In this document: piece after piece, positions 8,017-44,346 of the stretch
How positions within the stretch are numbered: position 1 is the first letter of the stretch
Layout of the letters: each line of letters opens with the position of its first letter
NCBI GenBank assembly: GCA_001769505.1
Contig: MEOF01000062.1
Span: forward strand, 1 to 64,000
Reading direction: 5' to 3'
Source: Bacteroidetes bacterium GWF2_33_38
GTDB taxonomy: Bacteria; Bacteroidota; Bacteroidia; Bacteroidales; GWF2-33-38
DNA: 64,000 nucleotides
Made by a program: the position numbers and the translations under genes
The notes under the pieces: generated by a model
What the model was told of the DNA's origin: nothing
Database searches by the model: none
Seen by the model: the letters and a program-made list of their open reading frames with translations, nothing else

Positions 8017-8706
8017 TTAACCCAATTCACTAATTTTCCTCAGACTGTCTTTTTGCAGCAGTTCCATTTCTCCATTATTATCTGATATTAGTCCACTTTC
8101 TTTGAAATCTTTTAATGCTCTTACTACGCTCATTACTGATAATCCGGTAAATTCAGCAATATCTTTTCTTGTCAACGACAAGTGAAATTTATCAGAATAA
8201 TAAATGTATTTTGCTAAGAACAAAAGTGTCTCAGCAATTCTACCATTAATTTGTTTTTGAGTTAACGAAAATATTTTATCGAAGTGATAAAACGTACATT
8301 TGGTCATGGTTGAAATAATAGAAGCCGCGAATTCTCCATTTGTTTTGACAAGGTTTTCAATTGTTTTTTTATCAATTGCACAAACTGTTGTATCTTCAAC
8401 GGCAGCCACTGAATACTGTAAAAAATCATCTCGAAATAATGATGGCAAACCAATTAGAGTTCCTTTGGGATATAAACTTAAAATTAAATTATCTTTTTCA
8501 TTAATCTCTTTATAAACTTTAGTTAAACCTTTTTGTACAAATAAAATGTGAGTTACGAAAGAACCTTGTTTAGCTATAACCTCTCCTTTTTTATACCGCA
8601 ACTCAACCCTTTTGGGCGAAATATTATCAAGTTCATCGACAGAAAGTTGTCTAAAACATGACGATTTGTTTTCACAAGCTAAACAAATATGTTCTGAGGT
8701 ACTCAT
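8017..8706 (-). CDS. FNR/CRP-family regulator with FNR-type cysteines
   Basis: cNMP-binding-like fold and C-terminal HTH (LTRKDIAEFTGLSVMSVVRALKDFKESGLI); N-terminal CLACENKSSC (CX2CX5C) plus a central TTVCAI cysteine. Confidence 0.85.
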   Translation of the reverse strand: MSTSEHICLACENKSSCFRQLSVDELDNISPKRVELRYKKGEVIAKQGSFVTHILFVQKGLTKVYKEINEKDNLILSLYPKGTLIGLPSLFRDDFLQYSVAAVEDTTVCAIDKKTIENLVKTNGEFAASIISTMTKCTFYHFDKIFSLTQKQINGRIAETLLFLAKYIYYSDKFHLSLTRKDIAEFTGLSVMSVVRALKDFKESGLISDNNGEMELLQKDSLRKISELG

Positions 8707-8937: not shown

Positions 8938-9435
8938 TTGATGAAAGCTAAAAATGTAATAGTTGCTTTTGTAGTAATGATGATTTCATGGCTTTTGCTA
9001 AATTGGTCGTTCAATCCAATAATTCTAGTTGTTGGCGTAATTTTATCACTTGCAATAAGTGTTATTTTTTGTGGCAAATGCAGTGTTTTTGAGGGAATAA
9101 AAATAACACCGAAAGCTTTTTTATACACGTTTATTTATTTGTTTGTTTTTATTCGAGAATTAATTAAAGCAAATATTGATGTTACCAAAAGAGTTTTATC
9201 GCCCACCTTACCCATTAATCCTGGAATTGTTAAAATAAAAACAAATTTGAAATCGAAGATGGCGAGATTAATATTGGCCAACTCAATTACATTAACGCCT
9301 GGAACATTCACAGTACATATCGAAGGAGACTTTTTTTACATCCATTGGATTAGTGTAGAAGCGAAAAATATAGAGGAAGCAACTCAAAAAATAGCAGATA
9401 CTTTTGAAAACATATTGAAAGAATTATATGATTAA
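8938..9435 (+). CDS. Na+/H+ antiporter subunit E (Mrp/Mnh/MbhA-like)
   Basis: 165 aa; MrpE-like membrane protein (SITLTPGTFTVHIEGDFFYIHWI), first gene of the operon. Confidence 0.85.
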   Translation: MMKAKNVIVAFVVMMISWLLLNWSFNPIILVVGVILSLAISVIFCGKCSVFEGIKITPKAFLYTFIYLFVFIRELIKANIDVTKRVLSPTLPINPGIVKIKTNLKSKMARLILANSITLTPGTFTVHIEGDFFYIHWISVEAKNIEEATQKIADTFENILKELYD

Positions 9436-9694
9436 TACAGATTTTATAATATATGTAGCGGTAGCAATTTTACTCATTGCTATGTTTTTGAATATGCTAC
9501 GTTTTATTAAAGGACCAACACTAGTTGATAAAATTATTGCCTTCGATGTTTTATCAATATCAGGGCTTGTTTTGATTGGTATTTTAGCAATTTTATCAAA
9601 TCGAATGATATATATTGATGTTGCAATTGTTTATGGACTATTGAGTTTTATGGGAGTTATTGTAGTTGCAAAATATATTCAGAAAGGATTATAA
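9428..9694 (+). CDS. Mrp antiporter subunit F (MbhB-like)
   Basis: 88 aa, three TM; RFIKGPTLVDKIIAFDVLS; overlaps upstream gene by 8 nt. Confidence 0.85.
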   Translation: MINTDFIIYVAVAILLIAMFLNMLRFIKGPTLVDKIIAFDVLSISGLVLIGILAILSNRMIYIDVAIVYGLLSFMGVIVVAKYIQKGL

Positions 9695-9696
9695 TT

Positions 9697-10074
9697 ATGG
9701 ATATAATAAAATTAATAGGTGGGATTTTTCTTTTAGGCGGTTCTTTGTCCTTGTTGGTCTCAGCAATTGGGCTTTTAAGAATGCCTGATGTTTATAACAG
9801 AGTACAAGTTGGAACCAAAGCTTCAACTTTTGGAGCAATTGTATCCTTTGTTGGAATAGCATTGTTAAAATATGAACATTGGTTTACCGGCGAAAATTGG
9901 TTAGGAAGAGCAGCTATTTTAATAATATTTATTTACATCACTAATCCGGTGTCATCACATGTTTTAATGAGGGCAGCGTATTTTATGAAAGTTCCTCTTT
10001 CAAAAATCACTAGTACTGACGTGCTAAGAGACGATTTAAATAATAATGTTATAAAAGAGCCAAAAAATGAATAG
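9697..10074 (+). CDS. Mrp antiporter subunit G (MbhC-like)
   Basis: 125 aa; IGLLRMPDVYNRVQVGTKASTFGA is MrpG-like. Confidence 0.85.
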   Translation: MDIIKLIGGIFLLGGSLSLLVSAIGLLRMPDVYNRVQVGTKASTFGAIVSFVGIALLKYEHWFTGENWLGRAAILIIFIYITNPVSSHVLMRAAYFMKVPLSKITSTDVLRDDLNNNVIKEPKNE

Positions 10075-10324
10075 AGAATTTTTATATATCGTATTAACCA
10101 TTTTTTTGGGAGTAGCGTCCATCGTACTTTCATTTATTTCGATACACAGCAAAAAGCTTTCTCTAGCAGTTATTGCAGTAGGAGTAGTTAGTTTGTTTGC
10201 TTCGATTTTGTTTTTATTAATGTCTGCACCAGATGTTGCTATGACAGAAGCTGCCATTGGAAGTGGATTAACAACCTTAATTTTCTTTTATGTTTTAAAT
10301 AAAATTAAAAAGTCAGATGCTTAA
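10067..10324 (+). CDS. DUF4040/MbhD-like subunit (MrpA C-terminal module)
   Basis: 85 aa; MSAPDVAMTEAAIGSGLTTLIF; overlaps both neighbours by 8 nt. Confidence 0.8.
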   Translation: MNREFLYIVLTIFLGVASIVLSFISIHSKKLSLAVIAVGVVSLFASILFLLMSAPDVAMTEAAIGSGLTTLIFFYVLNKIKKSDA

Positions 10325-11018
10325 GAATATTATTATAGCCGTAATTTTAATTGTTTTTGCCGTATTGTTTTTTGATTTATTTATGCTTTACGAAGCAAGA
10401 ACAGGATTAACAGGAATTGCTCAATATTACGCACAAAATGGGGCTAAAGAGGTTGGTGCGGCAAACTTAGTAACGTCTATTGTGGTTACTTACAGAGGAT
10501 TTGACACACTTGGTGAAGTAACAATTTTGTTTGTTGCTGCTTCCATAATCTCATTCTTTTTAAAATTGAAAGAAAATGATGAAAGCAAAAACATATCGAG
10601 TAAAGATACCACCGAAATTTTAGTTACAGCATCAAATGTTCTTGTGCCAGTAATTTTCTTGTTTGGTATTTACGTATTCATCAATGGACATTTGACTCCC
10701 GGAGGAGGATTTCAGGGTGGAGCAATTATTGCAACCGGAGTCGCTCTTATGATTTTAGCAAACCCAAACATAAAAATAAATACTCAAATTATACATTGGG
10801 TTGAAAGTATTTCGGGTGTCGGTTACGTTGTTGTCGGTATATTTGGGTTGATTTTAGCAGGAGGCTTTTTAGATAATAAAATTACAGGTTTAGGAGAATT
10901 CGGGGCACTCTTTAGTGCAGGAGCAATACCAATCATTTACAGCTTTATCGGACTGAAAGTAGGAGCTGAAATTTCTAATATTCTTAACAAATATCAAAAA
11001 TCACAAAAAAATGATTAA
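10317..11018 (+). CDS. Mrp antiporter subunit B (MbhE/F-like)
   Basis: 233 aa; YRGFDTLGEVTILFVAA and HLTPGGGFQGGAIIATG are diagnostic of MrpB/MnhB. Confidence 0.85.
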   Translation: MLKNIIIAVILIVFAVLFFDLFMLYEARTGLTGIAQYYAQNGAKEVGAANLVTSIVVTYRGFDTLGEVTILFVAASIISFFLKLKENDESKNISSKDTTEILVTASNVLVPVIFLFGIYVFINGHLTPGGGFQGGAIIATGVALMILANPNIKINTQIIHWVESISGVGYVVVGIFGLILAGGFLDNKITGLGEFGALFSAGAIPIIYSFIGLKVGAEISNILNKYQKSQKND

Positions 11019-11400
11019 TACTGAATATTTTACATTAGGACATATAAGTTTATTACTTGGCTTTATACTTATTATTGTTGGTTTTTGGGGTATATTAACT
11101 CAAAAAAATATAGTAAAAATTATTTTGGCTTTTTCAATTGCTGATGCAGGAATAAATATTTTGATTGTAAGTTTAGGATATGTAATTGGTAAAACGGCTC
11201 CTATCATCGACGGTTCTGTTGTGCAAAAAGCTGGTATTGATGTTTCTGATTCAATTGTTGACCCGGTACCACAGGCATTAGTATTAACTTCAATTGTTAT
11301 TGGATTTGGAGTTACCGCATTAATGTTGGCATATGCAATGAAACTTTTTACTGCCAAAAAAACTTTACATATTAATAAATTTAACGATTTAAAATGGTAA
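11011..11400 (+). CDS. Mrp antiporter subunit C / NuoK-like (MbhG-like)
   Basis: 129 aa; three-TM NuoK-like, DPVPQALVLTSIVIGFGVTALMLA. Confidence 0.85.
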   Translation: MINTEYFTLGHISLLLGFILIIVGFWGILTQKNIVKIILAFSIADAGINILIVSLGYVIGKTAPIIDGSVVQKAGIDVSDSIVDPVPQALVLTSIVIGFGVTALMLAYAMKLFTAKKTLHINKFNDLKW

Positions 11401-14400
11401 CACCAATATTTATTGTCGCAACAGCTCTTGGAGTTGGTTTTGCAATAGGAGTTTTAAATAAGTTTGGGCGAAATTTTACTGGAGCATTAGTGCTTGCCGC
11501 TCTTTCTTTTATGACGTTTATTTCTTTTCAATGGTTTTATGCCTTAACTTTTAATAATTTATCAGAAGCTTATGTTTTTACTGGAGGATTTAAGCCTCCT
11601 TTTGCCATAAATTTACTAATGGGACAATACGAATCTATTGCCACTCTAATGATAAATTTAATTGGTTTTCTTGGGGCAGTTTATTTGTATAAAAGTTTAA
11701 AAGAAAGAGGTTCTGATGCACAAGTCGTTTACCTGATTCTTATAATGGCTCTTAATGTTTTGGTAATGACACGTGATATTTTTAATCTCTTTGTTTTTTC
11801 AGAAATAACAAGCGTGGCAATTGCCGGACTAATTCTTCTTGAAAAAGGTACTCGTTCAATTAGTGCAGGGTTTAAATATATAATAGCGACAAGTGTAATT
11901 TCAACAATTTTTCTCATAGGAATTGTCTTTGCTTATTTTATCACCGGAACTTTAAATATTGACGATTTTATTGGAATCAGTTTATCGACATATAAAGGAG
12001 GAACTATCGTGGTTTTTTTAATAATGATTTCCGCTGTGTTAGAACTAAAACCTTTTCCTGCCAATGGTTGGGGAATCGATATTTATGAGGCTTCAGAGGC
12101 TGGATTTTCGGCAATTATTTCTGCTGCAACTACGACTGCTTCACTTTTTGTTTTATATAAAATTATGGCATTTGCCGGAGCTGAATGGAATTATTATATC
12201 GCTCTTATTGGAATGATAACATTTATAGGAAGTAATTTATTGGGTCTCAAACAAGATAATACCCGCCGAATGCTTGGTTATTCTTCGATAGGACAAGTTG
12301 GATTGCTAATAACAATTTTAGGATTTAAGGATATTTTAGGTGAAAACGCTCCATTTATATTTTTCGGAATTCTAATTTCGCATTATTTTGCAAAAGCAGG
12401 ATTATTCTGGCTTTCGGGCATTATTAACGCATCTAATTTAAAGGCTTGGTCTATTATTCGTAAAAAGCCAATTCTTTTATTTCTGATGGGAACTTTTATT
12501 TTTGCGTTAATCGGATTTCCTCCATTCCCTTCGTTTTTTGCAAAATGGACGTTGGTTATGGATCTTGTTAAAACAGGAAACATCGTTTGGGTTATTGGAA
12601 TTCTATTAGGGTCGTTGTTTGAAGCTATTTATTTATTCCGATGGTTTGGATATGCAATTAAGGGAGACGCAGAAAAAACAGAAGAATATAAAATCGAATT
12701 CCATAAAATAATACCAGTTTGGATTGTTGCATTATCGTTATATGTTTTAGGATATTTTATCGCCCAATACAATGAATTTACTTCTGTTATTAATTTTATT
12801 CCGTTGGCTTTTGTCGCTCTTATTTTTGCCATAGATTTCATGCCCGTTTTGATAAAAAATACGATTGCAATTATTGGAATGATTTTTTATTTCTACACTA
12901 TTTATCCTCAATTGGATAATCTCCGATTAATTTTTGAAGTCATATTTTTAATAGGTGGAATTTTAGCCCTTATTGCAGGTTATTTACACAAAGGGAAACG
13001 AATAGGTTTTTATCCTGTTGCATTGCTTATGTATGCAGGGTTAACAGGAATTTTGGAAGCTAAAACTACCTTAGAATTTTTCTATGGATGGGAGCTGATG
13101 ACAGCCGGCTCTTATTTTTTGATTATTCGAGGAAAACGTTCAATGACTCACGCATTAAGTTATATGTTGTTTTCTCTTGCAGGAGCTTATGCGATTTTAA
13201 CTGCTTTCGGAATAGCAAGCGTAGGACAAAGTACATGGTCGTTAAGTATAATCAACAATATTCAATATATTCCTTTATGGGCGTATTCTTTATTAATAAT
13301 TGGTTTTTTAACAAAAACAGCATCAATCGGATTACATATTTGGTTACCTGGAGCTCATGCTGAAGCTGAGAGCGATGTTTCTCCGATGGTATCAGCAATT
13401 TTATTAAAAGCTGGAGTTTTTGGAATTGTGTTAACTTTAATCGGCATGGGGGCTGAAAATAATCAATATTCTGAACTTGTGTATGTGTTAGGTTGGCTTG
13501 GAGCAATTACAGCATTGATAGGAAATTTAGCAGCAGTTTTTCAAGAAGATGCAAAGCGATTATTAGCATATTCGTCAATTGGACAACTCGGATACATTGT
13601 TTTTGGTTTTGCAATGATGACACATTTAGGTTGGTTGGCAGCATTTACCTACACCATAAATCACTTTATGTATAAATCAATTCTATTTTTAACAATTGGA
13701 GCAGTAGTTTTGAGAGTTAAAACACACAATATGTACGAAATGGGCGGTTTAATTAAAAAAATGCCATTTGCATTTATAGCCGTTTTAATTTCAATAATTG
13801 CACTTTCGGGAGTTCCACCTTTATCAGGATTTGCCGGAAAATGGTTGTTGTACAATGCTGTAATTTTAAAAGGTTGGTATTTACAAGGAGCAATTGCATT
13901 TTTTTCAGGAATTATTGCATTTTTATATTTATTTAAATTGATAAGTTCAATTTTTTTAGGACAACTAAAAGATAATCACCGAAATGTAAAAGAAATATCA
14001 ATTTGGTTTATAATTCCAATTTATATTTTAATAGTTGGATTAATGATTTTTGCCGCAAAACCCGAATTAATTCTTCAACCATTAGGAACAATGATTTCAC
14101 AATATTTCCCTGAAGGAGGATTAAATTGGAATGGAGGAATGGCAACAACATCAATAGGATATTGGCACGGAACTCACATTATGATTATTGTTGGAATTAT
14201 GTTTGCTATTTTATTTTCGTGGTTAGCATTTTTAAGCCGAAAAGCACAAAAAGTGAAACAATTCAACATTGTATATTCGGGCGAAAGACCTTTTACACCC
14301 GAAACTACACACGTTTCATACAACATTTTTGCAGGTTACAACAAAGCATTAGGATTTTTAGTTCTTCCTTGGATTACCGATTTTTGGACATTAACAACAA

Positions 14401-14516
14401 ACATTGTGCACGACATTTCGGGCTTCGTTAGACGAATTTATAGTGGCAACGGACAAACATATTTAACACACATAGTATTGTATGTAGTGGTTATATATTT
14501 TGTGTTTTTTAATTAA
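11394..14516 (+). CDS. Fused tandem antiporter-like subunit (two MrpD/NuoM-type domains plus MbhI/NuoL-like C-terminal arm)
   Basis: 1040 aa; two proton-pump domains each with a LGYSSIGQ/LAYSSIGQ motif; C-terminal region with GERPFTPETTHVSYNIFAGY...VRRIYSGNGQTYL. Confidence 0.85.
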   Translation: MVTPIFIVATALGVGFAIGVLNKFGRNFTGALVLAALSFMTFISFQWFYALTFNNLSEAYVFTGGFKPPFAINLLMGQYESIATLMINLIGFLGAVYLYKSLKERGSDAQVVYLILIMALNVLVMTRDIFNLFVFSEITSVAIAGLILLEKGTRSISAGFKYIIATSVISTIFLIGIVFAYFITGTLNIDDFIGISLSTYKGGTIVVFLIMISAVLELKPFPANGWGIDIYEASEAGFSAIISAATTTASLFVLYKIMAFAGAEWNYYIALIGMITFIGSNLLGLKQDNTRRMLGYSSIGQVGLLITILGFKDILGENAPFIFFGILISHYFAKAGLFWLSGIINASNLKAWSIIRKKPILLFLMGTFIFALIGFPPFPSFFAKWTLVMDLVKTGNIVWVIGILLGSLFEAIYLFRWFGYAIKGDAEKTEEYKIEFHKIIPVWIVALSLYVLGYFIAQYNEFTSVINFIPLAFVALIFAIDFMPVLIKNTIAIIGMIFYFYTIYPQLDNLRLIFEVIFLIGGILALIAGYLHKGKRIGFYPVALLMYAGLTGILEAKTTLEFFYGWELMTAGSYFLIIRGKRSMTHALSYMLFSLAGAYAILTAFGIASVGQSTWSLSIINNIQYIPLWAYSLLIIGFLTKTASIGLHIWLPGAHAEAESDVSPMVSAILLKAGVFGIVLTLIGMGAENNQYSELVYVLGWLGAITALIGNLAAVFQEDAKRLLAYSSIGQLGYIVFGFAMMTHLGWLAAFTYTINHFMYKSILFLTIGAVVLRVKTHNMYEMGGLIKKMPFAFIAVLISIIALSGVPPLSGFAGKWLLYNAVILKGWYLQGAIAFFSGIIAFLYLFKLISSIFLGQLKDNHRNVKEISIWFIIPIYILIVGLMIFAAKPELILQPLGTMISQYFPEGGLNWNGGMATTSIGYWHGTHIMIIVGIMFAILFSWLAFLSRKAQKVKQFNIVYSGERPFTPETTHVSYNIFAGYNKALGFLVLPWITDFWTLTTNIVHDISGFVRRIYSGNGQTYLTHIVLYVVVIYFVFFN

Positions 14517-14540: not shown

Positions 14541-15446
14541 ATGAATATCGATTTTACTAAACTATTTTTTACCTTTTTAGGATTAATGATAGTTCTTAAT
14601 TGGGGTTTATTAATGAGTGCAATTATGCGAAAAATTGGAGCAAGAGTTGCCGGACGATACGGAATTCCTTGGTTTCAACCTTGGGTTGATTTAATTAAAA
14701 ACTACGCAGTGCGATCGCAAATAACTCACGGAATTATGTTTTATTTAGGACCCGTTTTTCGTTTATCGGGAGGCGTTGGTTTGTTTCTTTTTATGCCAAT
14801 ACTTTTTGGTTCAAATTTGTGGAGTAATTTTTCGTTTCAAGGCGATTTAATTTTAATATTGTATTTTCAATTTTTTGGAATGCTCGGAATGGCTCTTGGA
14901 GCAGGAGAAGGCGGTCAACCACATTCGTTTATTGGAATTAGCCGTGGACTTTCGCAATTCACAACCATTGAAGTTCCAATGACTTTAGCAGTAATTTCAC
15001 TTGCCGTTCAATATCACACATTATCAATTTCAGAAATTGTGGCAGCACAACAAGGCGGAATTATGAATTGGACAATGTTCACAAATCCATTTGCAACCGC
15101 AGCTGCAATGCTATCGTTACTTGGAGCATTTGGACATTCGCCATTCGATTTAGTAAAAGCACCAAACGAAATTCCAATTGGACCACCAACCGAATATCAC
15201 GGAACTTTTTTAGGTGTTTTAAGAACCAACGCAGCAATTTTGCACGTAGTTGAAACTGTGTTGTTTATGAATTTATTTTTTGGCGGAGCAAGCAATTGGT
15301 TTGAACTAATAATAAAATCATTCTTAATCTATTTTTGGTCGGTTTTTGTTGGAATGGTTTTTCCACGATTTAGAATTGAACAATCGGTAGTGTGGTTTTT
15401 AAAAGTACCTTTAATATTGGGAATTATTGCAATTCTGTTGCTTTAG
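14541..15446 (+). CDS. NuoH/MbhM-like membrane subunit
   Basis: 301 aa; GRYGIPWFQPWVDLIKNYAVRS, FGHSPFDLVKAPNEI, typical NuoH/HyfC-family loops. Confidence 0.9.
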   Translation: MNIDFTKLFFTFLGLMIVLNWGLLMSAIMRKIGARVAGRYGIPWFQPWVDLIKNYAVRSQITHGIMFYLGPVFRLSGGVGLFLFMPILFGSNLWSNFSFQGDLILILYFQFFGMLGMALGAGEGGQPHSFIGISRGLSQFTTIEVPMTLAVISLAVQYHTLSISEIVAAQQGGIMNWTMFTNPFATAAAMLSLLGAFGHSPFDLVKAPNEIPIGPPTEYHGTFLGVLRTNAAILHVVETVLFMNLFFGGASNWFELIIKSFLIYFWSVFVGMVFPRFRIEQSVVWFLKVPLILGIIAILLL

Positions 15447-15557: not shown

Positions 15558-16250
15558 ATGACAGACGAAAAATTAAATAACGAACAAATGGAAAGTGTTT
15601 CAAGATTTTTTGCTCCTGAAAACGAGTTAAAAAAAGTAGAAACTCCCGATGGACAAATAATTGAAGTAAATCCATTACAAGATTATTTTTCAGAAGCACG
15701 ACCCAAAGTTCACGAACCCAATAGTTCAAAAATTATTGAAAAATTCTTAAATTGGGCTAGAGCAGAGTCACTATGGGTGTTAGGTTTTGGAACCGGATGC
15801 GGAAGTATTGAAATTCCACCACTTTTAACACCACGTTTCGATGCTTTCCGATATGGAGTTCAAATGCGACCAACACCACGCCAATCAAATGTAATAATTA
15901 TTTCAGGATATTTAGCCGTAAAAACGTTAAAAAGAGTTGTGCGTAGTTACGAACAAATGCAAAATCCAAAATATGTAATTGCACTTGGAAGTTGCACAAT
16001 AAATGGAGGAATGTATTTCGATAGTTATAACACAATTAATAGGCTCGACCATTATATTCCGGTTGATGTTTATATTGCAGGTTGTATGCCACGCCCCGAA
16101 GCATTATTAGCAGGTTTTGGAAAACTAAAAGAACTCATAAAAGACGGAAAAGCTGAAAATGCAAATAAATATGTCGAAAATTTTGATTGGTATAAAGCAA
16201 ATCAAAAAAAAATTATAAAAGATTGGAATATGCCCGATTATAATTGGTAG
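15558..16250 (+). CDS. NuoB/MbhJ-like Fe-S subunit with only three cysteines
   Basis: ORF track starts at a TTG (15540) within the repeat; ATG at 15558 is more likely. GTGCGSIEIPP, ALGSCTINGG, IAGCMPRPEAL; no other Cys. Confidence 0.85.
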   Translation: MTDEKLNNEQMESVSRFFAPENELKKVETPDGQIIEVNPLQDYFSEARPKVHEPNSSKIIEKFLNWARAESLWVLGFGTGCGSIEIPPLLTPRFDAFRYGVQMRPTPRQSNVIIISGYLAVKTLKRVVRSYEQMQNPKYVIALGSCTINGGMYFDSYNTINRLDHYIPVDVYIAGCMPRPEALLAGFGKLKELIKDGKAENANKYVENFDWYKANQKKIIKDWNMPDYNW

Positions 16251-16338
16251 AAAGTGAAGGTTATAGAGGAAATATGGAAATAAAGGTATAGAGGAAACAA
16301 GAAAATAAAACAAATTATAAAATTGAAAAGCAAATCTA

Positions 16339-16370
16339 ATTCCCCCTTAGAAAAGGGGGCGAGGGGGATT
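16339..16370. repeat. Palindromic element AATTCCCCCTTAGAAAAGGGGGCGAGGGGGATT
   Basis: CCCCCTT-AGAA-AAGGGGG hairpin in the intergenic gap of the operon. Confidence 0.8.
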
Positions 16371-16380
16371 GAAAAAAAAT

Positions 16381-16408
16381 AGATTTCTCGCAAGAAACTC
16401 GAAATGAC
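16381..16408. repeat. Half copy of the GTCATTTCGA/AGATTTCTC family
   Basis: agatttctcgcaagaaactcgaaatgac matches the right half of the elements at 18218 and 18335. Confidence 0.7.
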
Positions 16409-16422
16409 AAAAAGAACGAAAA

Positions 16423-16980
16423 ATGAAAAACTTATTAGAGCAATTAAATAAAAAATACACACTTTCTGAAATTGATTTTCAGAACCCGCAATTTGTGTAT
16501 GTTACTATATCACACGAAAATACAATTGATTTAATAACGCATTTGCGTGATGTTGAAGGTTTTACACATTTTGTATTACTTTCTTGTGTTGATTGGATTG
16601 AAGATGGAAAATTTCAATTAAGTTATTTTTTAAATCAACCCGAAAAAAAAATGGATTTAGTTGTTCGATGTTTTATTAATAGAGACAATGCCGAAATGCA
16701 ATCAGCACATCATTTGTGGAAACATATTGAAACTTACCAACGAGAACTTCGCGAAATGTATGGAATTAATTTTCCCGGAAGTCCACGAATTGAAGAAAAT
16801 TTTATATTAGAAGGTTGGGATAATATACCGCCAATGCGAAGAGAATTTGATACAAAAAAATATTCCGAAGAAACATTTTTTCCTCGTCCAGGAAGAAAAA
16901 AATATGACCCTGCAACATATATGAAAGAAAAATTGTATCCAAACGCACCAACAAATGCAAAAATAAATAAAAATGAGTAG
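16423..16980 (+). CDS. NuoC/MbhK-like subunit
   Basis: 185 aa; HHLWKHIETYQRELREMYGINFPGSPR...FILEGWDNIPPMRREFD is NuoC-like. Confidence 0.85.
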   Translation: MKNLLEQLNKKYTLSEIDFQNPQFVYVTISHENTIDLITHLRDVEGFTHFVLLSCVDWIEDGKFQLSYFLNQPEKKMDLVVRCFINRDNAEMQSAHHLWKHIETYQRELREMYGINFPGSPRIEENFILEGWDNIPPMRREFDTKKYSEETFFPRPGRKKYDPATYMKEKLYPNAPTNAKINKNE

Positions 16981-18160
16981 TTTATTTAAATGGCAAACAG
17001 ATAGAAGTAAATATCCATCAATGAATGACGATGGAAGTTTAGATGTTGATTTATCATCACATAAATATACAAAATTATGGGTTGGTCCAAACCATCCGGG
17101 AATTACAGGAAGTATGGCGGTTGAAATTACAATAAATGGCGATGAAATTGTTCAAGCAAAAACTCACGTTGGATATTTACACAGAGGTTTTGAAAAATTA
17201 ATCGAACGCCGTTTATTCATTCAAGGATTTCCAACTTGTATCAGAATGTGCGTTGCCGAACCCGATTTTAACGAATATCTTTTATCAAAATCAATAGAAA
17301 ATTTAGCCAAAATTGAAATTCCCGAAATGGCCGAATGGTTACGAACCTTGGTTCTAGAAATGGCTCGTTTGCAAAGTTTATTAAGAACGGTGCCGGGTCA
17401 AGCGGGAACCTTTTCGTTAGGTTTAGGAGTTCAATGGGGAATGTATTTACGAGATTTAATTTTAGACAGATTTGAAGAATTAACAGGCGGACGAATTTAT
17501 CACATGTATATTTTACCCGGCGGAGTTCGTGGTTTATTGCCCGATGGTTTTAAACAACGAATGGAAGAAAATTTAAAATTGATTGACGAATTTATTATAA
17601 ACATCAAAAAATTAATGTTCAACAATGCTGTTTTCAAAAAAAGAGCAATTGGAGTTGGTGTAATTAAAAAAGAATGGGTCGATAAATTTGGAATTGTTGG
17701 ACCAAATGCACGAGCCGTTGGAATTAACCGCGATGTGCGTAAAGATTATCCATATTTAAAATATTCGGAATTAGATTTTGAACCACCAACAGCAAAAGAA
17801 GGCGATATTTATGCACGAAGCACAGTTCGATATCAAGAATTAATTCAAACCGTTGATTTAATACGTCAAATTATGGCAAAAATGCCCGAAAAAGGCGATA
17901 TTAAAGCACAAACACCAAATGTTTTACATTGGCGAATTCCAAAAGGAGAAAGCTATGTTCGCTCCGAAAGTTCACGTGGCGAATACGGAATGTATTATGT
18001 TACCGACGGTAGCGACAAACCACGAAGAATTAATTTAAGAGGACCAAGTTATAATCACGCAATGACATTATTAGAACACATGCTAATAAATGCAAATGTT
18101 TCTGATGTTCACGCAATTATGGTTTCGTTACAAACTTGTCCACCGGAAATTGAAAGATAA
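16973..18160 (+). CDS. NuoD/MbhL-like large subunit with incomplete NiFe ligand set
   Basis: 395 aa; WVGPNHPGITGSMAVE, HVGYLHRGFEKLIE, FPTCIRMC and C-terminal SLQTCPPEIER replacing the hydrogenase DPCxxC. Confidence 0.9.
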   Translation: MSSLFKWQTDRSKYPSMNDDGSLDVDLSSHKYTKLWVGPNHPGITGSMAVEITINGDEIVQAKTHVGYLHRGFEKLIERRLFIQGFPTCIRMCVAEPDFNEYLLSKSIENLAKIEIPEMAEWLRTLVLEMARLQSLLRTVPGQAGTFSLGLGVQWGMYLRDLILDRFEELTGGRIYHMYILPGGVRGLLPDGFKQRMEENLKLIDEFIINIKKLMFNNAVFKKRAIGVGVIKKEWVDKFGIVGPNARAVGINRDVRKDYPYLKYSELDFEPPTAKEGDIYARSTVRYQELIQTVDLIRQIMAKMPEKGDIKAQTPNVLHWRIPKGESYVRSESSRGEYGMYYVTDGSDKPRRINLRGPSYNHAMTLLEHMLINANVSDVHAIMVSLQTCPPEIER

Positions 18161-18217
18161 TTTGATAATTTGGTAATGTGTTAATTTGAAAATGAAATTA
18201 TTGAAATAAAATTGGCT

Positions 18218-18297
18218 GTCATTTCGAAATGAGCGGTAGCGATTGAGAAATCTATAAAAATTAAAGAATTGAGATTTCTCCCTGCGGTCGAAATGAC
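18218..18297. repeat. Dispersed inverted repeat (GTCATTTCGA...GAGAAATCT...GAGATTTCTC...TCGAAATGAC), copy 1
   Basis: Terminal and internal inverted matches read directly. Confidence 0.8.
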
Positions 18298-18334
18298 ATA
18301 AATGGAAGTTCGAAATGACAATTTGAGTTGGGCT

Positions 18335-18403
18335 GTCATTTCGAGGGAAGTGCAACGACGAGAAATCTCAAAAATAGATTTCTCATAGGAAATTCGAAAT
18401 GAC
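18335..18403. repeat. Dispersed inverted repeat (GTCATTTCGA...GAGAAATCTC...AGATTTCTC...TCGAAATGAC), copy 2
   Basis: Same architecture as copy 1; about 37 bp apart. Confidence 0.8.
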
Positions 18404-18464
18404 AAAAAATAAAATTAAAAATTTCTTGTAAGAAAATAGGAATAAACAAATCACCATCAAAAAT

Positions 18465-20264
18465 ATGAGTTTAAAAGATATAATAAGTCCATTTACGGCA
18501 TGGGGAAACATTGTGAAAGAACCTGTTACAATTAAAAACCCAATTGGACGACAAGCAGCTCCTCGTTATAGAGGATTTCATAAAAACGATTTAGACAAAT
18601 GTATTGGTTGTGGAACTTGTGAAACCATTTGCGAAAACGAAGCCATTGATTTAGTTCCCGTTGAAGGAATAAAAACAAAAGATGGCGATAGCGGACTTCG
18701 CCCAATGCTCGATTATGGACGCTGTTGTTGGTGTGCTTTGTGTGTTGATGTTTGCACAACAAATTCATTAAGTTTATCTGACGCATACACTTGGGTTGTA
18801 ACCGATCCCGAAGAATATAGATTTATTCCCGGAGTTGATAAAAAAGATTGGGATAATTCAGAAAATGGATGGAAAAAACCTGAACCAAATTACGAATTTT
18901 ATAATATCAACCGAGTAAAAATGCCCGAACTTCACGCCAATGAACGAGCATCATCATTTATTGAATTTGTTACAGGATATTCAAAACAACAAGCAGAATT
19001 AGAAGCCGACCGTTGTGTTGAATGTGGAATTTGCACATCGGCTTGTCCCGCTCACATGGGAATTCCCGAATATATAAAAGCAATTCGTAACAACAATTTA
19101 GAAGAAGGTTTACGAATTTTATACGAAACAAATCCATTACCCGAAATATGCGGAAGAATTTGTACACATAAATGCGAAAGCGTTTGTAGTATTGGGCACA
19201 AAGGCGAAGCATTATCAATTCGTTGGTTGAAACGCTACATTGCCGATCAAAATCCATCAGAAAAATACAAAAAAATCCTAAACACCGACAACCTAAAACA
19301 AAACGGAAAAAAAGTTGCAATAATTGGATCCGGACCATCGGGTTTATCTGCCGCACATTATTTATCGTTGATGGGATATAAATGCACAATTTTCGAAAAA
19401 TTGCCAAAAGCCGGAGGAATGATGCGTTATGGAATTCCCGAATATCGTTTACCTTACGATCAAATTGATAAAGATATTGAATATATTTTAAGCCTTGGAG
19501 TTGAAATAAAATACAATGTAAATGTTGGAACAGATATAAAACTCGAAGATTTAAATAAACAATTCGATGCAGTATTTTCAGGAACCGGTTTGCATCTCGG
19601 ACGAAGCACTCGAATTGCAGGTTCAGACCACAAAAACGTTTATTTTGCAACCGATTTATTGCGTGAAATTTCGTTAGGAAATGAAGTTCCTTTAGCCGAA
19701 AAAATTGTTGTAATTGGTGGCGGAAACGTAGCAATGGACATAACTCGTTCGTTGGCACGATTGCAAAATCAAAAATTCGGAAAAGTTGATATAACAGCAA
19801 CTTGTTTAGAAAGCGAAGAAATTATGCCTGCCGATAGAGAAGAAATTGTTGAAGCACGAGAAGAAAATGCTATTGTTGATGCAGGTTGGGGACCAAAAGA
19901 AATTGAAATAGAAAACGGAAAAATTAAAGGACTTAACGTTGTAAAATGCTTATCGGTTTTTGACGAAAACAAAGCATTTAATCCAAAGTTTGATGAACAA
20001 AATAAGAAATTTTTTGCCGCTGAAATGGTGGTAGAATCTATTGGACAAGGTATGGATTTAAGTTATTTGAGCGAAGAATTTAAACAAAATTTAAAATTTA
20101 ATCAACGTGGACGAATAGAAGTAAACGATTATTTTCAATCGAGTATTGAATGGTTGTTTATTGGAGGCGATATTATTCAAGGTCCTGATGTAATTCACGG
20201 AATTGCAAATGGACACAAAGCAGCAATTGGAATTGATAAATTTTTAATGAACGAATTATGGTAA
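18465..20264 (+). CDS. NuoI/MbhN-like 2x[4Fe-4S] ferredoxin fused to GltD/NfnB-like FAD-NAD(P)H oxidoreductase
   Basis: 599 aa; CIGCGTCETIC and CCWCALCVDVC, then CVECGICTSACPAHMGIPEYI...CGRICTHKCESVC, FAD motif GSGPSGLSAAHYL, NAD(P) motif GGGNVAMDITRSL. Confidence 0.9.
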   Translation: MSLKDIISPFTAWGNIVKEPVTIKNPIGRQAAPRYRGFHKNDLDKCIGCGTCETICENEAIDLVPVEGIKTKDGDSGLRPMLDYGRCCWCALCVDVCTTNSLSLSDAYTWVVTDPEEYRFIPGVDKKDWDNSENGWKKPEPNYEFYNINRVKMPELHANERASSFIEFVTGYSKQQAELEADRCVECGICTSACPAHMGIPEYIKAIRNNNLEEGLRILYETNPLPEICGRICTHKCESVCSIGHKGEALSIRWLKRYIADQNPSEKYKKILNTDNLKQNGKKVAIIGSGPSGLSAAHYLSLMGYKCTIFEKLPKAGGMMRYGIPEYRLPYDQIDKDIEYILSLGVEIKYNVNVGTDIKLEDLNKQFDAVFSGTGLHLGRSTRIAGSDHKNVYFATDLLREISLGNEVPLAEKIVVIGGGNVAMDITRSLARLQNQKFGKVDITATCLESEEIMPADREEIVEAREENAIVDAGWGPKEIEIENGKIKGLNVVKCLSVFDENKAFNPKFDEQNKKFFAAEMVVESIGQGMDLSYLSEEFKQNLKFNQRGRIEVNDYFQSSIEWLFIGGDIIQGPDVIHGIANGHKAAIGIDKFLMNELW

Positions 20265-21235
20265 ATTTAGCAACAACATATTTAGGTTTAAACCTACGAA
20301 ATCCAATAATTATTGGAAGTTCAGAACTTACAAATTCAGTCGAAAAAATTATTGAATTAGAAAAAAGTGGAGCAGGAGCAATAATTTTAAAATCGTTGTT
20401 CGAAGAGCAAATTTTAATGAATATTGATGCCGAAAGAGTAAATAATATGTATGAAACTTATTCTGATACAGAAAATTATGTTTCGTACTATTTAAAAAAA
20501 CACAATGTTGATAGCTATTTAAATTTAATTAAAAATGCAAAATCGAAAGTTGAAATTCCAATAATTGCAAGCGTAAATTGCATAAGTTCAGAAGATTGGA
20601 CAAGTTTTGCAAAAGACATTGAAACTGCCGGAGCCGATGCTTTAGAATTAAACATTTTTATACTTCCAAGCGATATTAACACAAAAGGAAGCGAAATTGA
20701 AAAAATATATTTAGAAATAATTTTAAAAGTTAGTTTGTTAGTTAAAATTCCTATTTCGGTTAAATTAAGTTCTCAATTTTCGGGATTTGCAAATTTCATG
20801 GTCGATATTTCAAAAATTGGAACAAAAGGAATAACTCTATTTAATAGGTTTTATAGTCCGGATATTGATATCGAAAACGAAAAAATTACATCAACTCATA
20901 TTTATAGCAATGAACTCGAAAATGCAAATGTTTTACGTTGGATTGGAATATTATCGAATAAAATAAATTGCGATTTTTCTGCTTCAACAGGCATTCATAC
21001 CGGAAAAGATGTTGTGAAAAATATTTTAGTTGGAGCTACAACAACTCAAATAGTATCAACTATTTACAAAAATGGAAATCAACAAATTGAAAAAATGCTA
21101 AACGAAATTATTGATTTTATGAACCAAAAAGGATACAAAAACCTTAACGATTTTAGAGGAAAATTAAGCCAAGATAAATCAACAAAATCAATAATTTTTG
21201 AAAGAACTCAATTTATGAAATATTTTAAACAGTAA
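20258..21235 (+). CDS. Dihydroorotate dehydrogenase-like flavoprotein
   Basis: 325 aa; TTYLGLNLRNPIIIGSSELTNSVEKI, TIM-barrel FMN-type; overlaps upstream fusion gene by 7 nt. Confidence 0.8.
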   Translation: MVNLATTYLGLNLRNPIIIGSSELTNSVEKIIELEKSGAGAIILKSLFEEQILMNIDAERVNNMYETYSDTENYVSYYLKKHNVDSYLNLIKNAKSKVEIPIIASVNCISSEDWTSFAKDIETAGADALELNIFILPSDINTKGSEIEKIYLEIILKVSLLVKIPISVKLSSQFSGFANFMVDISKIGTKGITLFNRFYSPDIDIENEKITSTHIYSNELENANVLRWIGILSNKINCDFSASTGIHTGKDVVKNILVGATTTQIVSTIYKNGNQQIEKMLNEIIDFMNQKGYKNLNDFRGKLSQDKSTKSIIFERTQFMKYFKQ

Positions 21236-32008: not shown

Positions 32009-33019
32009 CTAAAATTTCGGACAAGAAACGATTACTTTTTTGCGTTTTTTTTGTTGCTCTTTGTCTTGCAAAAATTCATAAATAATCGAAATTTCGTGTG
32101 AACCTCCTGTTTTTGAACTTAATCCCGAAATTGTTAAATCGTAACTATAGCCAATTTTTAAATCTTTGAGCTGGTATCCTGCTAAAATAGCCACCGCATC
32201 ATGATTTACGTAATCTGATGAGTATTTTTTAAATCCGGGAATACCTCTATACCAAACACCAATAACCATTGGTCGTTTCGACCAATATAATCCAATGTCT
32301 AGCTGGTCGTACTCGGATTGTGTTTTGTATATGAAGGCTGGTGTGATTAGCTCTTCGTCGTATTTTCCATATCGATTGTTTATTGAAAACTTTGTGCCTC
32401 CAAAAATTGAATATCTCATTGGAACATTGCTTTCAGCTCCTAACAACGATTCGTTTGGTTTGAGCATGTGGTTAACGGATAACCCTACCCAATTTCTTTC
32501 AGAAAAAAACAAAGCAGAAGAAGAAAAATCGATATATCCAATTTGTTTTTCTGATGGAATTTCAACGGATGTACTCGTATTATAAACCATTTGGTCGCTG
32601 AATTTAAGATTATAAAAATCAACTCCTCGCTGCGAGTACATTAGGTGAATTCCAGGTCTAAACGACCACTTTCTATTTATCGTGAGATTGTAAGAGTATT
32701 GAAGCCCAATGTTTGTTGTTCGTAGATTTCCATGTCCAGCTTGGTCTTGGAGAAACAATAGCCCTAAACCGCTATTTACATTTGAAAAATAATGATCGTA
32801 ACTAAAACTGTAGGTATTGTATCCACCTGCAATTAATCCCCATTGATTTCTGTAATTTAATGCGACTCTGCTACCATCAGTTGCTCCCGCAAAAGAAGGA
32901 GCTAAATACAATGGTGCAGCATAAAATTGCGAAAATTGTGCATCTTGTGCCAATACATTATTAACATTAAATATTTTTAAAGCAATAAAAATGAATAATA
33001 TAACATATATTTTATTCAT
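32009..33019 (-). CDS. PorP/SprF-family type IX secretion membrane protein
   Basis: QDAQFSQFYAAPLYLAPSFAGATDGSRVALNYRNQWG is the signature PorP/SprF N-terminus. Confidence 0.92.
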   Translation of the reverse strand: MNKIYVILFIFIALKIFNVNNVLAQDAQFSQFYAAPLYLAPSFAGATDGSRVALNYRNQWGLIAGGYNTYSFSYDHYFSNVNSGLGLLFLQDQAGHGNLRTTNIGLQYSYNLTINRKWSFRPGIHLMYSQRGVDFYNLKFSDQMVYNTSTSVEIPSEKQIGYIDFSSSALFFSERNWVGLSVNHMLKPNESLLGAESNVPMRYSIFGGTKFSINNRYGKYDEELITPAFIYKTQSEYDQLDIGLYWSKRPMVIGVWYRGIPGFKKYSSDYVNHDAVAILAGYQLKDLKIGYSYDLTISGLSSKTGGSHEISIIYEFLQDKEQQKKRKKVIVSCPKF

Positions 33020-34601: not shown

Positions 34602-37600
34602 TTATCTCAATAATGTTACATCGCCTGATTTAAAAAACGATTCTCCATTACTTAATTTCCCAGTAACTTTCCATACATATACATCTTGTTTGCATATTTC
34701 TCCTCTATAATATCCATTCCAACCGATATTGATATCTTCGCTTACAAATAATAATTCGCCCCAACGATTGTAAACTTCGAAATGATATTGTTCAACTCCT
34801 TCAGCAATCGGAAAGAAAATGTCGTTGCTATAATCATATTTATTGTATTTTCCATCGGGCTCACCATCTGCATTTGGTGTAAAAGCATTTGGATAATTGA
34901 TATTTCCACCAACTGTAGTTTCAACAGCTTCAGGTTTTATTTCTGTATCAACGCAGTTTGAATCCGACCAAGCTTTAAGAGTTATAGTATAAATTCCAAC
35001 CTCGGTATAAACATATTTGGGATTTTCTACACTAGTGGAATCTCCATTTCCAAAATACCACATATAAGCGGTTGCATTTTCTGAAAGGTTGTAACAATTA
35101 ATTTGCTGATTTGGCAAATACACTTTTATTGGTGAAATGGTAAATTCTGCAATTGGGTTTGGAAACACGTTTATTGTTGCATTTGTTGTTTCATCGCTAC
35201 CACCAGGTCCAATAGCTTTTAGTGATACTTCGTAAGTTCCTGCTTCAATGAATGTGTGAGCTGGATTTTCTTGCGAAGATGTATTGCCATCACCAAAATT
35301 CCATTCGTAATTTGTTGCATTTTGCGACTTGTTGCTAAACTGAACAGTAAGTGGCTCACAACCCTGAGCCGAAGAATCGAAATCCGCAATTGGAAGTGCT
35401 GGGATTATTTCAATTTGACGGAAACTTGTATCGGAGCAATGAGTTCCTGAAACAGTTAACATAATTGTATAATTACCAAAATTATCGTATTGATGCATTA
35501 ATGGATGTTCTTGTGTAGAAAAATCGCCGTCGCCAAAATTCCAATCAAAATTCCAATTTCCTAGATTTGTTAAATTATCGATGGTAATAGAAGAAAACGG
35601 ATAAATTTGACTTGTTGGCAATGCAGTAAAATTAGCTGTTGGACTTGCATAAACGGTTATATTTTTACGAATTGAATCTAAGCAATGGTATTGCGACTCA
35701 GCAATGAGTTGAACTTCAAAAATTGAATCCGTCCCTGAATTATTTGTGAATATATGAGTTGGATTTGTTTGTGTGGAAGTAACTTGGTTGCTAAAATTCC
35801 ATGTGTATATATTTGCTCCAAATGATTGATTTATAAATGACGATTGTAAAGGGCTACAACCTACTGAATCGTAATAAAAATTGGCAATAATCTCAGGGTA
35901 AACCAAAACTGTTTGAGAAGTTGCATCGGTACAGCCATTTACATTTTGGGCGGTTAACTCAACAATATAGTTATTAGGAACGCTTATCGTATTTTCGAAA
36001 ATGTGATTTAAAGAGGATTGTTGAGTTGAAATTGTGTCGCCGTCGCCAAAATTCCATTTGAATAAATCGCAACTCGACGAAGTATTTTCAAAATTTATTG
36101 ATAGGGGAGAGCATCCCAAAATATTATCCATAACGAATTTAGCTATTGGAACAGCTAAAACATTTATGTTTTTACTGATTGAATCTTTACAATTATACAT
36201 AGAATTTGCGGTAAGTTTTAACGTAAAAACGGTATCGTTTATCGTTGATAAATTGGTAAAGATATGAGTTGGATTTGTAATCGAAGATGATATTCCATCG
36301 CCGAAAATCCATTCGTAATCTTGAGTTCCTACGGATGTATTTAATAATGAAATGCTTAAAGGAGAACAGCCGATAGAGTCAGTTAAAAAATCAGCATTTA
36401 TCGAAGGGTAAACTACAATCTGTTTTTGAATTTCGTCTGTACAATTAAAAATATTTGAAACAATAAAACTTACATCAAAATAATTAGGAACACTCTGGTT
36501 GTTATTGTATTCGTGAGAAATTATCGAATCACTCGAAGTTGAAAAATTGTTATCCCCAAAATACCATTCATAACTATTCCCACCTATTGATAAATTAATA
36601 AAATCGATAGTTTTGGGAGCACAAAAAATACTGTCTGATAGCGTGAAGTTGGCAATAGGCTTTGGGTTTACCGTAATTTCTTTGCTAACACTGTCAGTAC
36701 ATGAATATTGGCTAGTTGCTATAAGATGAACTACAAAATTTGTATCGGTTAATTGTGAGATTATGTATTGATTTGTAGGGTTTTTTATGCTAGATGTAGA
36801 ATTGTTGCCAAAATCCCAATTGTAAGATATAGCTCCAATTGATTGATTTGTAAACTGGATTGTTAATGGTGAGCAACCGACTGAATCGCAAGAAAATTCT
36901 GAAATGATTTCAGGATAGGTGGTAACAGTAATTGAAAAAGTGTCTTTGCATTCAAACTGTGTTTTGCTTATCAATGTAATAGTATTTGAAATTGGAGTAC
37001 TTATCTGATTCAAAAATTGATGAGAGAATTGATTCAATGAAATAGTATCCAAATTTCCATCTCCATAATCCCAATAGTAGAAATCAGCTCCAGTTGATAA
37101 ATTTGTAATTTCGGCAATAAATGGAGTGCAAGCACTTGTAGTATCTAACGAAAATTCAGCATTAGGTTTAGGATGAACTACAATATTATGAGTAACAGAA
37201 TCGGAGCATCCAAAAAATGAAGTTGTTTTTAGTTTAATATTGTAAGTTGTATCAACTGTTAATAAATTCGAATATGTATGATTAATATTGTAATCATCAG
37301 TAATTATAATACCATCTCCAAAATCCCAAGTGTACATAAAAGCTCCTTGAACAGCCGAAAAATTTACATTCTCGGGATTACATGCAGAACTAGGAATCAA
37401 TGTAAAATCATAAATAGCATTTGGAAAAACTGTTACCCATGCTTCTGTAGTGTCTTTACAATTGTATTCGGAAATGGCAATTAAGTTAACTTCATAAAAT
37501 TGAATAAATGAAGTGTCGTTTATAAAGGTATGTGTTGGATTATTCGTTGTATCTAATTGACTTCCATCATTGTAGTTCCAAATTAACATGTCTGCTCCAA

Positions 37601-42534: not shown

Positions 42535-44346
42535 ATGGGAATGACAATTATTGAAAAGATACTTGCTAACCACTCAAAATACGACGTAGTTAAACCAGAT
42601 GAAAATATCGATATTTTAATCGATGCGAGGGTTGCTCGTGATTTTGGAGGGGCAAATGTTGTTAAAAATCTTGAAGATAACGGAATGTCGGTTGATGACC
42701 CTTCGAAAACATTTTTTACATTCGATTGCAATCCAACAGGCTCTGATCAAAAGTATGCCGTAAATCAGCATATTTGTAGATTATTTGCCCGAAAACATAA
42801 TTTTAAAGTTTATGACATAGATTCTGGCATTGGAACTCATCTAGCAATTGATAAAGGCTTGGCTTGGCCAGGCTCAACTTTTGTTTCTACTGATTCTCAT
42901 GCAAACATCATGGGAGCAATCGGTTCATTCGGACAAGGTATGGGCGATGTTGATATTGCTGCAACTTTTGCAAAAGGAAGTATTTGGTTTAAAGTTCCGC
43001 ATTCGGCAAAATTAACATTTGTTGGAAAACGTCCTGCGAATGTTTCTGCTAAAGATTTCGTTTTAAACATGCTTGCAATTTATGGTGCAAATAAATTATT
43101 AGGATATTCAGTTGAATTATATGGCGAATGCATCGAAAAACTTACACTTGACGAAAGAATTACGATTGCGTCGATGGGAACCGAAATGGGTGCTATCATT
43201 ATATTAATTCCTGCAAATGATGAAATTATCAAATACAGCGAGAAAATTACCGATAAAAAAATAGAAAAAATTATTGCTGATACAGATGCTCATTACGAAT
43301 TGAATCACACAATTGATGTCAGTAAATTTGTTCCAATGGCCTCACGACCAGGAAAACCACACGATAGTGTAAATATTAATGATGTAAAAAAGATAAAAAT
43401 AGATTCTGGTTTTATTGGTAGTTGCACAAATGGACGCATTGATGATATGCGTGCTACAGCTGAGGTTCTTAAAAATCGCAAAGTCGCTCCGGGAGTTGTT
43501 TTAAAAATAGTTCCTGCAACAAATGAAGTTTGGGAGCAATGTCTTGAAGAAGGAATAATTTCAATTTTCAAAAAAGCAGGAGCAATGGTATCAAATGCAG
43601 GTTGTGCAGGTTGTGCAGCTGGTCAGGTTGGTCAAAATGGTGCAGGCGAGATAACAATGAGTACTGGAAATAGAAACTTTCCTGGCAAACAAGGCAAAGG
43701 CGACGTTTATCTTTCATCTCCAGCAAATGTTGCAGCGTCATGCGTTGCAGGTTACATTACCACGGTAGATGATATTCCGGCAAGTCCTGCTGTTTTTGAG
43801 CTTGGCGAAAAAATTAGCAAGGTAGAAGTTGTCGTAAAGAAAAATATTAAAGTTGAAGATAAGCCAATAATCGTAGAAGGTAGGGTCTGGTTTATAAAAG
43901 AGGATAATATCGATACCGATATGATTTATCACAATAGATATTTGGCTATTACCGACATTAAAGAAATGGGGCAATATACTTTTGATAATCTTAAAGGATA
44001 TGAAGATTTTGCTAAAAAAGCTAAACAAAATGATATAGTTGTAACTCAAAAGAATTTTGGAGCAGGAAGTTCACGTCAACAAGCAGTTGATTGTTTTAAA
44101 TCGTTAGGAATTCATTGCATAATTGCCGAATCGTTTGGAGCAATATACGAGCGAAATGCTATCAATGCTGCTTTCCCAATCATGACTTACAATAATATTA
44201 CAGACCTTGATTTAGTTGCAGGAGACACTATCAGCGTAAATTATGAAACCGGAGAAATTACTAATTTGAAAAACAAAAAAACAATCAAAGGAAATCCTTT
44301 CTCTGATGTTCAAATGGAAATTTATCAGAATGGAGGGCTTTTTTAG
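42535..44346 (+). CDS. Fused aconitase-superfamily hydro-lyase (LeuC+LeuD-like), paralog A
   Basis: Cluster motifs GSCTNGR and GCAGC; C-terminal swivel domain DNIDTDMIYHNRYLAI...GAGSSRQQAV. Confidence 0.85.
   Translation: MGMTIIEKILANHSKYDVVKPDENIDILIDARVARDFGGANVVKNLEDNGMSVDDPSKTFFTFDCNPTGSDQKYAVNQHICRLFARKHNFKVYDIDSGIGTHLAIDKGLAWPGSTFVSTDSHANIMGAIGSFGQGMGDVDIAATFAKGSIWFKVPHSAKLTFVGKRPANVSAKDFVLNMLAIYGANKLLGYSVELYGECIEKLTLDERITIASMGTEMGAIIILIPANDEIIKYSEKITDKKIEKIIADTDAHYELNHTIDVSKFVPMASRPGKPHDSVNINDVKKIKIDSGFIGSCTNGRIDDMRATAEVLKNRKVAPGVVLKIVPATNEVWEQCLEEGIISIFKKAGAMVSNAGCAGCAAGQVGQNGAGEITMSTGNRNFPGKQGKGDVYLSSPANVAASCVAGYITTVDDIPASPAVFELGEKISKVEVVVKKNIKVEDKPIIVEGRVWFIKEDNIDTDMIYHNRYLAITDIKEMGQYTFDNLKGYEDFAKKAKQNDIVVTQKNFGAGSSRQQAVDCFKSLGIHCIIAESFGAIYERNAINAAFPIMTYNNITDLDLVAGDTISVNYETGEITNLKNKKTIKGNPFSDVQMEIYQNGGLF

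Follow-up and report, generated by a model that had tools for sequence, protein, structure and literature searches.

A candidate NADH-linked ion pump of the MBS/MBX type with an MbsN-GltD fusion as its predicted electron-input subunit

The MBS complex has been presented as a form intermediate between hydrogenases fed by ferredoxin and a complex I fed by NADH. The MBS of P. furiosus works reductively, uses ferredoxin and has polysulfide as its acceptor; its proximal [4Fe-4S] cluster has three cysteine ligands only (MbsJ C28, C93 and C123), two of the four NiFe cysteines are left (MbsL C85 and C385, shown to be non-catalytic) and the quinone residues H38 and Y87 are missing (PMC7684303). In Thermotoga maritima, mbxA was induced 4.4-fold by S0 (PMC9431562). 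For the dehydrogenase-linked MBX of Desulfurococcaceae, it was suggested in 2010 that a SudA/GltD-type gene supplies the complex with NADPH (PMC3035292).

Regarding flavoproteins with a GltD-type module, the phosphate of NADPH is bound in NfnB by a Y-R-R motif, and DsrL enzymes without YRR prefer or require NAD(H) (PMC7596348). The proximal cluster of NfnB has a glutamate ligand, whereas the non-bifurcating StnC has a lysine there (PMC10482914); the cluster motif of NfnB is GRVCPQExQC (PMC6405883). The fusion of an MbsN-like ferredoxin domain to a GltD module is itself already known as an architecture, since NCBIfam models it (NF010590/PRK13984, 'putative oxidoreductase') and T. maritima has a member. 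In the open literature searched, no NADH-fused bacterial MBS was described, bar the unfused SudA-linked MBX (PMC3035292). The searchable papers apparently do not describe that the fused family is of MBS type, how widespread it is, its split into NADH-type and NADPH-type clades or its non-bifurcating signature.

The window analysed here, the whole stretch of 64,000 nucleotides from Bacteroidetes bacterium GWF2_33_38, contains an operon with such a fusion and the following features:

8017..8706, minus strand: divergent Crp/Fnr-type regulator (Pfam cNMP_binding, HTH_Crp_2)
8938..9435, plus strand: MrpE/MbsA-like (Pfam MNHE)
9428..9694, plus strand: MrpF/MbsB-like (Pfam MrpF_PhaF)
9697..10074, plus strand: MrpG/MbsC-like (Pfam PhaG_MnhG)
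10067..10324, plus strand: MbhD/MbsD-like (Pfam MbhD)
10317..11018, plus strand: MbhE+MnhB-like, one protein as in MBS (Pfam; best solved match 6u8y_E)
11011..11400, plus strand: MrpC/NuoK-like, MbsG (Pfam Oxidored_q2)
11394..14516, plus strand: double antiporter of 1040 aa, MbsH-like and MbsH'-like halves fused (6u8y_H and 6u8y_X match separate halves)
14541..15446, plus strand: NuoH/MbsM-like membrane anchor (Pfam NADHdh)
15558..16250, plus strand: NuoB/MbsJ-like, three-Cys motif GTGCG, GSCTI, AGCMP (best match 6u8y_J; ligand counts); start taken at ATG 15558, the listed ORF beginning at TTG 15540
16423..16980, plus strand: NuoC/MbsK-like (Pfam Complex1_30kDa)
16973..18160, plus strand: NuoD/MbsL-like, C93 and C389 equivalent to C85 and C385 (best match 6u8y_L)
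18465..20264, plus strand: MbsN-GltD fusion (PRK13984 type), 599 aa, uninterrupted ORF (Pfam, NCBIfam, solved-structure matches)
18465..18824, plus strand: MbsN/NuoI-like 2x[4Fe-4S] domain of the fusion, about residues 1-120 (best solved match 6u8y_N)
18948..19259, plus strand: Fer4_20, the GltD N-terminal Fe-S helical domain, residues 162-265 (Pfam)
19230-19232, plus strand: Lys256 in the Fer4_20 domain, replacing the Glu ligand of NfnB (residue comparison)
19308..20198, plus strand: FAD and NAD(P) Rossmann folds (Pyr_redox_2), residues 282-578 (Pfam; AlphaFold2 model)
19803-19811, plus strand: C447-L448-E449, replacing the YRR of NfnB (residue comparison)
20258..21235, plus strand: DHOD-like flavoprotein (PRK07565), overlapping the end of the fusion (NCBIfam)

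The gene order of the operon corresponds gene for gene to P. furiosus mbx, PF1453-PF1441 (table in PMC2678158), and the gene set and order of mbs with its two antiporter units are likewise present, the two units being fused in the window and encoded by a single ORF in all relatives with long enough contigs. An MBS chain is the top solved match for NuoD (MbsL, E 2.5e-87 vs 1.5e-58 for the next solved match), for NuoB (MbsJ, E 1.4e-63 vs 8e-39), for the MnhB-like protein, for both antiporter halves and for the ferredoxin domain. The MbsJ ligands C28, C93 and C123 are conserved in 62-63 of 65 relatives, and the non-ligand C25 of MbsJ is glycine in 63 of 65. Judged by its subunits and residues, the complex of the window is of the MBS/MBX (sulfane reductase) type. 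Two gaps inside the operon (16250-16420 and 18160-18460) hold copies of a short repeat, TGTCATTTCGA with its reverse complement and GAGAAATCT with its reverse complement, not found elsewhere in the window.

An earlier note, made from the sequence alone, had described the 599-aa ORF as a NuoI/MbhN-like ferredoxin joined to a GltD/NfnB-type module, a description borne out by Pfam, structure matches and motifs. MbsN (6u8y_N) tops the solved structures matched by residues 1-145 (E 2.8e-22) and shares with the fusion the N-terminal stretch K-PVTIK...APRYRGFH; Pfam places Fer4_7 at residues 45-100. The C-terminal part matches chains of NfnB, StnC, NfnABC and the GltD type among solved structures, and the nearest fold to an AlphaFold2 model of the fusion (alignment of 34 members, mean pLDDT 80.5) in structural matching is that of NfnB. 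The FAD-binding GxGxxG is present, and GGGNVAMD occupies residues 418-425. Of the 17 cysteines checked, none varies among 88 members, apart from a single gap at C46 in a sequence truncated by a contig end; in the ferredoxin domain these are Cys 46, 49, 52, 56, 87, 90, 93 and 97 together with C88.

A genome scan with nine aligned fusion members returned 566 stretches encoding some relative, GltD-only relatives included. The best 80 of these 566, kept as loci from independent assemblies, have the full-length architecture (with one exception over practically the entire query) and represent at least eight phyla, including Bacteroidota, Chlorobiota, Spirochaetota, Cloacimonadota, Fermentibacterota, Fidelibacterota, Delongiibacteriota and others; the cultured Prolixibacter bellariivorans and P. 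denitrificans are among them. Against NF010590/PRK13984, residues 2-597 of the fusion align to 7-609 of 611 with a full-length score of 889-892 bits, under the equivalog cut-off of 946, which the T. maritima protein exceeds. The members form two clades, one with [CSA]-L-E (83 members) and one with YRR (five members, L014-L018); the latter is deeply diverged (100% support) and has a NuoB of the three-Cys type, with GTGCG and the other two Cys ligands. Genome G051 apparently carries two kinds of MBS-type NuoB gene.

NuoD lies immediately 5' of the fusion in 72/72 testable loci, and where contigs are long enough the order MrpE-MrpF-MrpG-MbhD-MbhE/MnhB-MrpC-double antiporter-NuoH-NuoB-NuoC-NuoD-fusion recurs. 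NuoB matches were surveyed in the window's genome and in 58 relatives, of which two belong to its family and the others to its order; the matches fell into two separate groups, with 58-81% identity (MBS type) and with no more than 48% (complex-I type). All eight relatives that have the former group carry the fusion, and in the remaining fusion genome, G052, the fusion locus adjoins a contig end. Across the samples tested, the fusion and the operon always accompany each other. The domain order for which the earlier note had proposed a search was found in 80 kept loci, and NuoB/C/D/H-like genes accompany it where contigs are long enough, with NuoD upstream in 72/72 testable loci; the possibility raised there that homologues occur only outside such operons is contradicted by the operon kept around the relatives.

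Regarding the neighbouring genes, the DHOD-like gene follows the fusion in 37/45 testable Bacteroidota and 1/3 Chlorobiota, and in 0/22 other loci; it is therefore not essential to the complex, and its product is possibly an accessory in Bacteroidota. Dihydropyrimidine dehydrogenase, which has GltD-like and DHOD-like parts in one enzyme, is among the structural matches of the AlphaFold2 model, and by this analogy the DHOD-like protein might, speculatively, be a lineage-specific accessory flavin partner. The Crp/Fnr-type regulator is divergent upstream of the operon in many relatives too and possibly regulates it; it has no specific NCBIfam match. Genes of the Rnf and Nqr types are present in the window's genome too, as are a HydB-like gene adjoining that of a large protein with a GltD part, an arrangement as in Stn, and a further single NuoD-like gene, whose cluster looks like hydrogenase 4; a complex-I-type NuoD was sought in this genome and none was found besides the NuoD-like gene of the window. 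Elsewhere in the window, two differing aconitase-family proteins of about 600 aa, each a fusion of LeuC/HacA-like and LeuD-like parts, are encoded in tandem (42535-44346 and 44823-46598), separated by a gene for a 23S rRNA-intervening-sequence-type protein, and a giant protein with PKD repeats and a CHU_C type IX secretion signal (34602-40016, minus strand) lies near a PorP/SprF-like gene (32009-33019, minus strand), a pair usual for Bacteroidota.

The operon probably encodes a bacterial ion pump of the MBS/MBX type whose electron-input subunit has a built-in NADH dehydrogenase and which would conduct electrons linearly from NADH to sulfane sulfur or a disulfide. The FAD of the GltD module would oxidise NADH, and single electrons would then pass linearly over four [4Fe-4S] clusters of the fusion, first a pair in the Fer4_20 domain and next a pair in the MbsN-like domain. 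They would go on to the proximal [4Fe-4S] cluster with three cysteines in the NuoB/MbsJ-like subunit and there, in the chamber over the NuoH/MbsM-like anchor, reduce a sulfane-sulfur bond or another disulfide. A tie to sulfur beyond sequence comparison comes from T. maritima, whose genome has a fusion-family member and in which S0 induces mbxA (PMC9431562). The reduction may be coupled to movement of H+ and/or Na+ through the fused MbsH-H' antiporter and the Mrp part. With an NAD(P)H-oxidising enzyme on the electron-input subunit, the pump is therefore probably powered by NADH and not by free ferredoxin only. As for the nucleotide, YRR was sought in 88 members and found only in the five-member second clade; in 83/83 members of the window's clade it is replaced by [CSA]-L-E, which in the window (C447-L448-E449) directly follows the strand 443-446 of the AlphaFold2 model. 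NADH is therefore predicted, by homology, to be the likelier nucleotide for the window's fusion, a preference that depends on a three-residue motif.

That the ORF is an assembly chimera, with a nuoI-like gene joined to a gltD-like one, has next to no probability, because the same length and domain order are present in the 80 kept relatives, two cultured Prolixibacter species among them, in T. maritima and in the NCBIfam model. An AegA-type protein working outside a complex is ruled out by the conservation of the operon and by the low scores against the AegA/YgfT family models (250 bits at a cut-off of 1003 and 199 bits at a cut-off of 1154, against 889 for PRK13984). Homologues of NuoB, C, D, H and I are present, as in a quinone-reducing complex I with GltD in place of NuoEFG, a reading that is nevertheless very improbable and that we reject on residues: the quinone headgroup residues H38/Y87 (Nqo4) are replaced by T/V in 84/84, the tandem Cys-Cys sought in NuoB of the window and its relatives is GTGCG instead, giving a three-Cys proximal cluster, and MBS chains match best. 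As a negative control, 13/13 loci read for complex-I NuoB in related genomes show the tandem CC. The four NiFe-ligand cysteines (two CxxC motifs) were also sought in the NuoD-like subunit, where only the equivalents of C85/C385 are present, conserved in the window and varying in some relatives; a group 4 NiFe hydrogenase is ruled out, the two CxxC motifs of the large subunit being incomplete. On the three-Cys proximal cluster and the absence of both H38/Y87 and the NiFe signature, the complex is neither a quinone complex I nor a hydrogenase. The proposal of the earlier note that GltD hard-wires NAD(P)H to an Mrp-linked complex is thus very probably right, as fusion and operon always occur together, but the complex is not a complex I with NuoEFG exchanged.

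The same note had suggested bifurcation or confurcation of the NfnB type at the GltD flavin, in which ferredoxin and NADH would both feed the fusion or exchange electrons in it; the DHOD-like flavoprotein, which that note does not mention, could join in Bacteroidota. In favour, the GltD module has the bifurcating NfnB as a homologue, the MbsN-like domain is the entry of ferredoxin electrons in MBS (PMC7684303), and R328, the counterpart by sequence of the NfnB Arg in contact with FAD N5, is conserved, although the non-bifurcating StnC keeps this Arg too. Such coupling is possible at this flavin but disfavoured, and we consider it unlikely, because Lys256 takes the place of the Glu ligand (Glu117 in Tm NfnB) in 88/88 members, as in non-bifurcating StnC, the fusion has GRICTHKC where GRVCPQExQC was sought, and no NfnA partner was found among the operon ORFs with Pfam hits; the DHOD-like gene, moreover, is missing outside Bacteroidota/Chlorobiota. 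Quite unlikely, too, is the specific form in which the fusion is a branch point and an ion-pumping sulfane reductase is driven by NADH and reduced ferredoxin together, in Bacteroidota perhaps with help from the DHOD-like flavoprotein; if true, it would mean flavin-based coupling built straight into a complex-I-type pump. Linear electron transfer from NADH meets a real difficulty of its own: the potential gap between NADH and polysulfide is only about 60 mV at standard conditions, which is poor for a multi-antiporter pump. The pump must therefore either have a low stoichiometry, use a more oxidising acceptor, be helped by ferredoxin, whose added driving force would solve the energy problem, or run backward. 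Complex-I-like machines are reversible, and the small gap makes direction condition-dependent. In reverse operation the MbsJ site would take electrons from thiols, sulfide or some other donor and an ion gradient would drive them to NAD+, as the related flavoprotein DsrL works towards NAD+ in sulfur oxidisers (PMC7596348), but P. furiosus MBS is reductive (PMC7684303) and S0 induces T. maritima mbxA (PMC9431562), which leaves this direction rather improbable. We infer that the linear, NADH-fed pump with a non-bifurcating flavin would run forward; ferredoxin input may persist in it, as P. furiosus MBS uses ferredoxin. A literature search found no report of sulfur reduction by Prolixibacter.

If true, a widespread bacterial MBS with GltD and not NuoEFG would be a second, independent link between the pump and the NADH pool; it would also point to a so far unrecognised respiration of sulfur or disulfides with NADH in many uncultured anaerobes. 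The fusion family also questions the assumption that the MBX of T. maritima, where a member is known at genome level, runs on ferredoxin alone, and the LE-type and YRR-type clades make nucleotide use directly testable.

Among known systems, E. coli AegA/YgfT likewise has a ferredoxin domain followed by a GltD module in a single ORF; it is not known to belong to a complex-I-like operon. NfnB of NfnAB shares the fold and domain order of the GltD part, but has the Glu ligand, GRVCPQExQC, YRR and the NfnA partner. StnC/NfnABC transhydrogenases (PDB 8oh5, 9n5u, 9bov) share the GltD module, the proximal-cluster Lys and the short C-x3-C spacing, whereas theirs is fused to NuoG-like parts, retains YRR, is soluble and is paired with a HydBC-type bifurcating module. 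The SudA gene of Desulfurococcaceae MBX (PMC3035292) is separate and archaeal, with the acceptor unassigned there. NF010590/PRK13984 has the same whole architecture and length and includes the T. maritima member, but the model gives no function and no MBS link, and the window falls below its cut-off. The MBX of T. maritima is described as an MBS homologue and published as ferredoxin-dependent (PMC9431562), while that genome has a fusion-family protein over the cut-off. With the MBS/MBX of P. furiosus (PDB 6u8y, PMC7684303), the window shares gene order, subunits, the three-Cys cluster, MbsL C85/C385 and the loss of the quinone residues; there, MbsN is unfused and ferredoxin-fed and MbsH and MbsH' are separate, whereas in the window MbsN bears a GltD module and H-H' is one protein.
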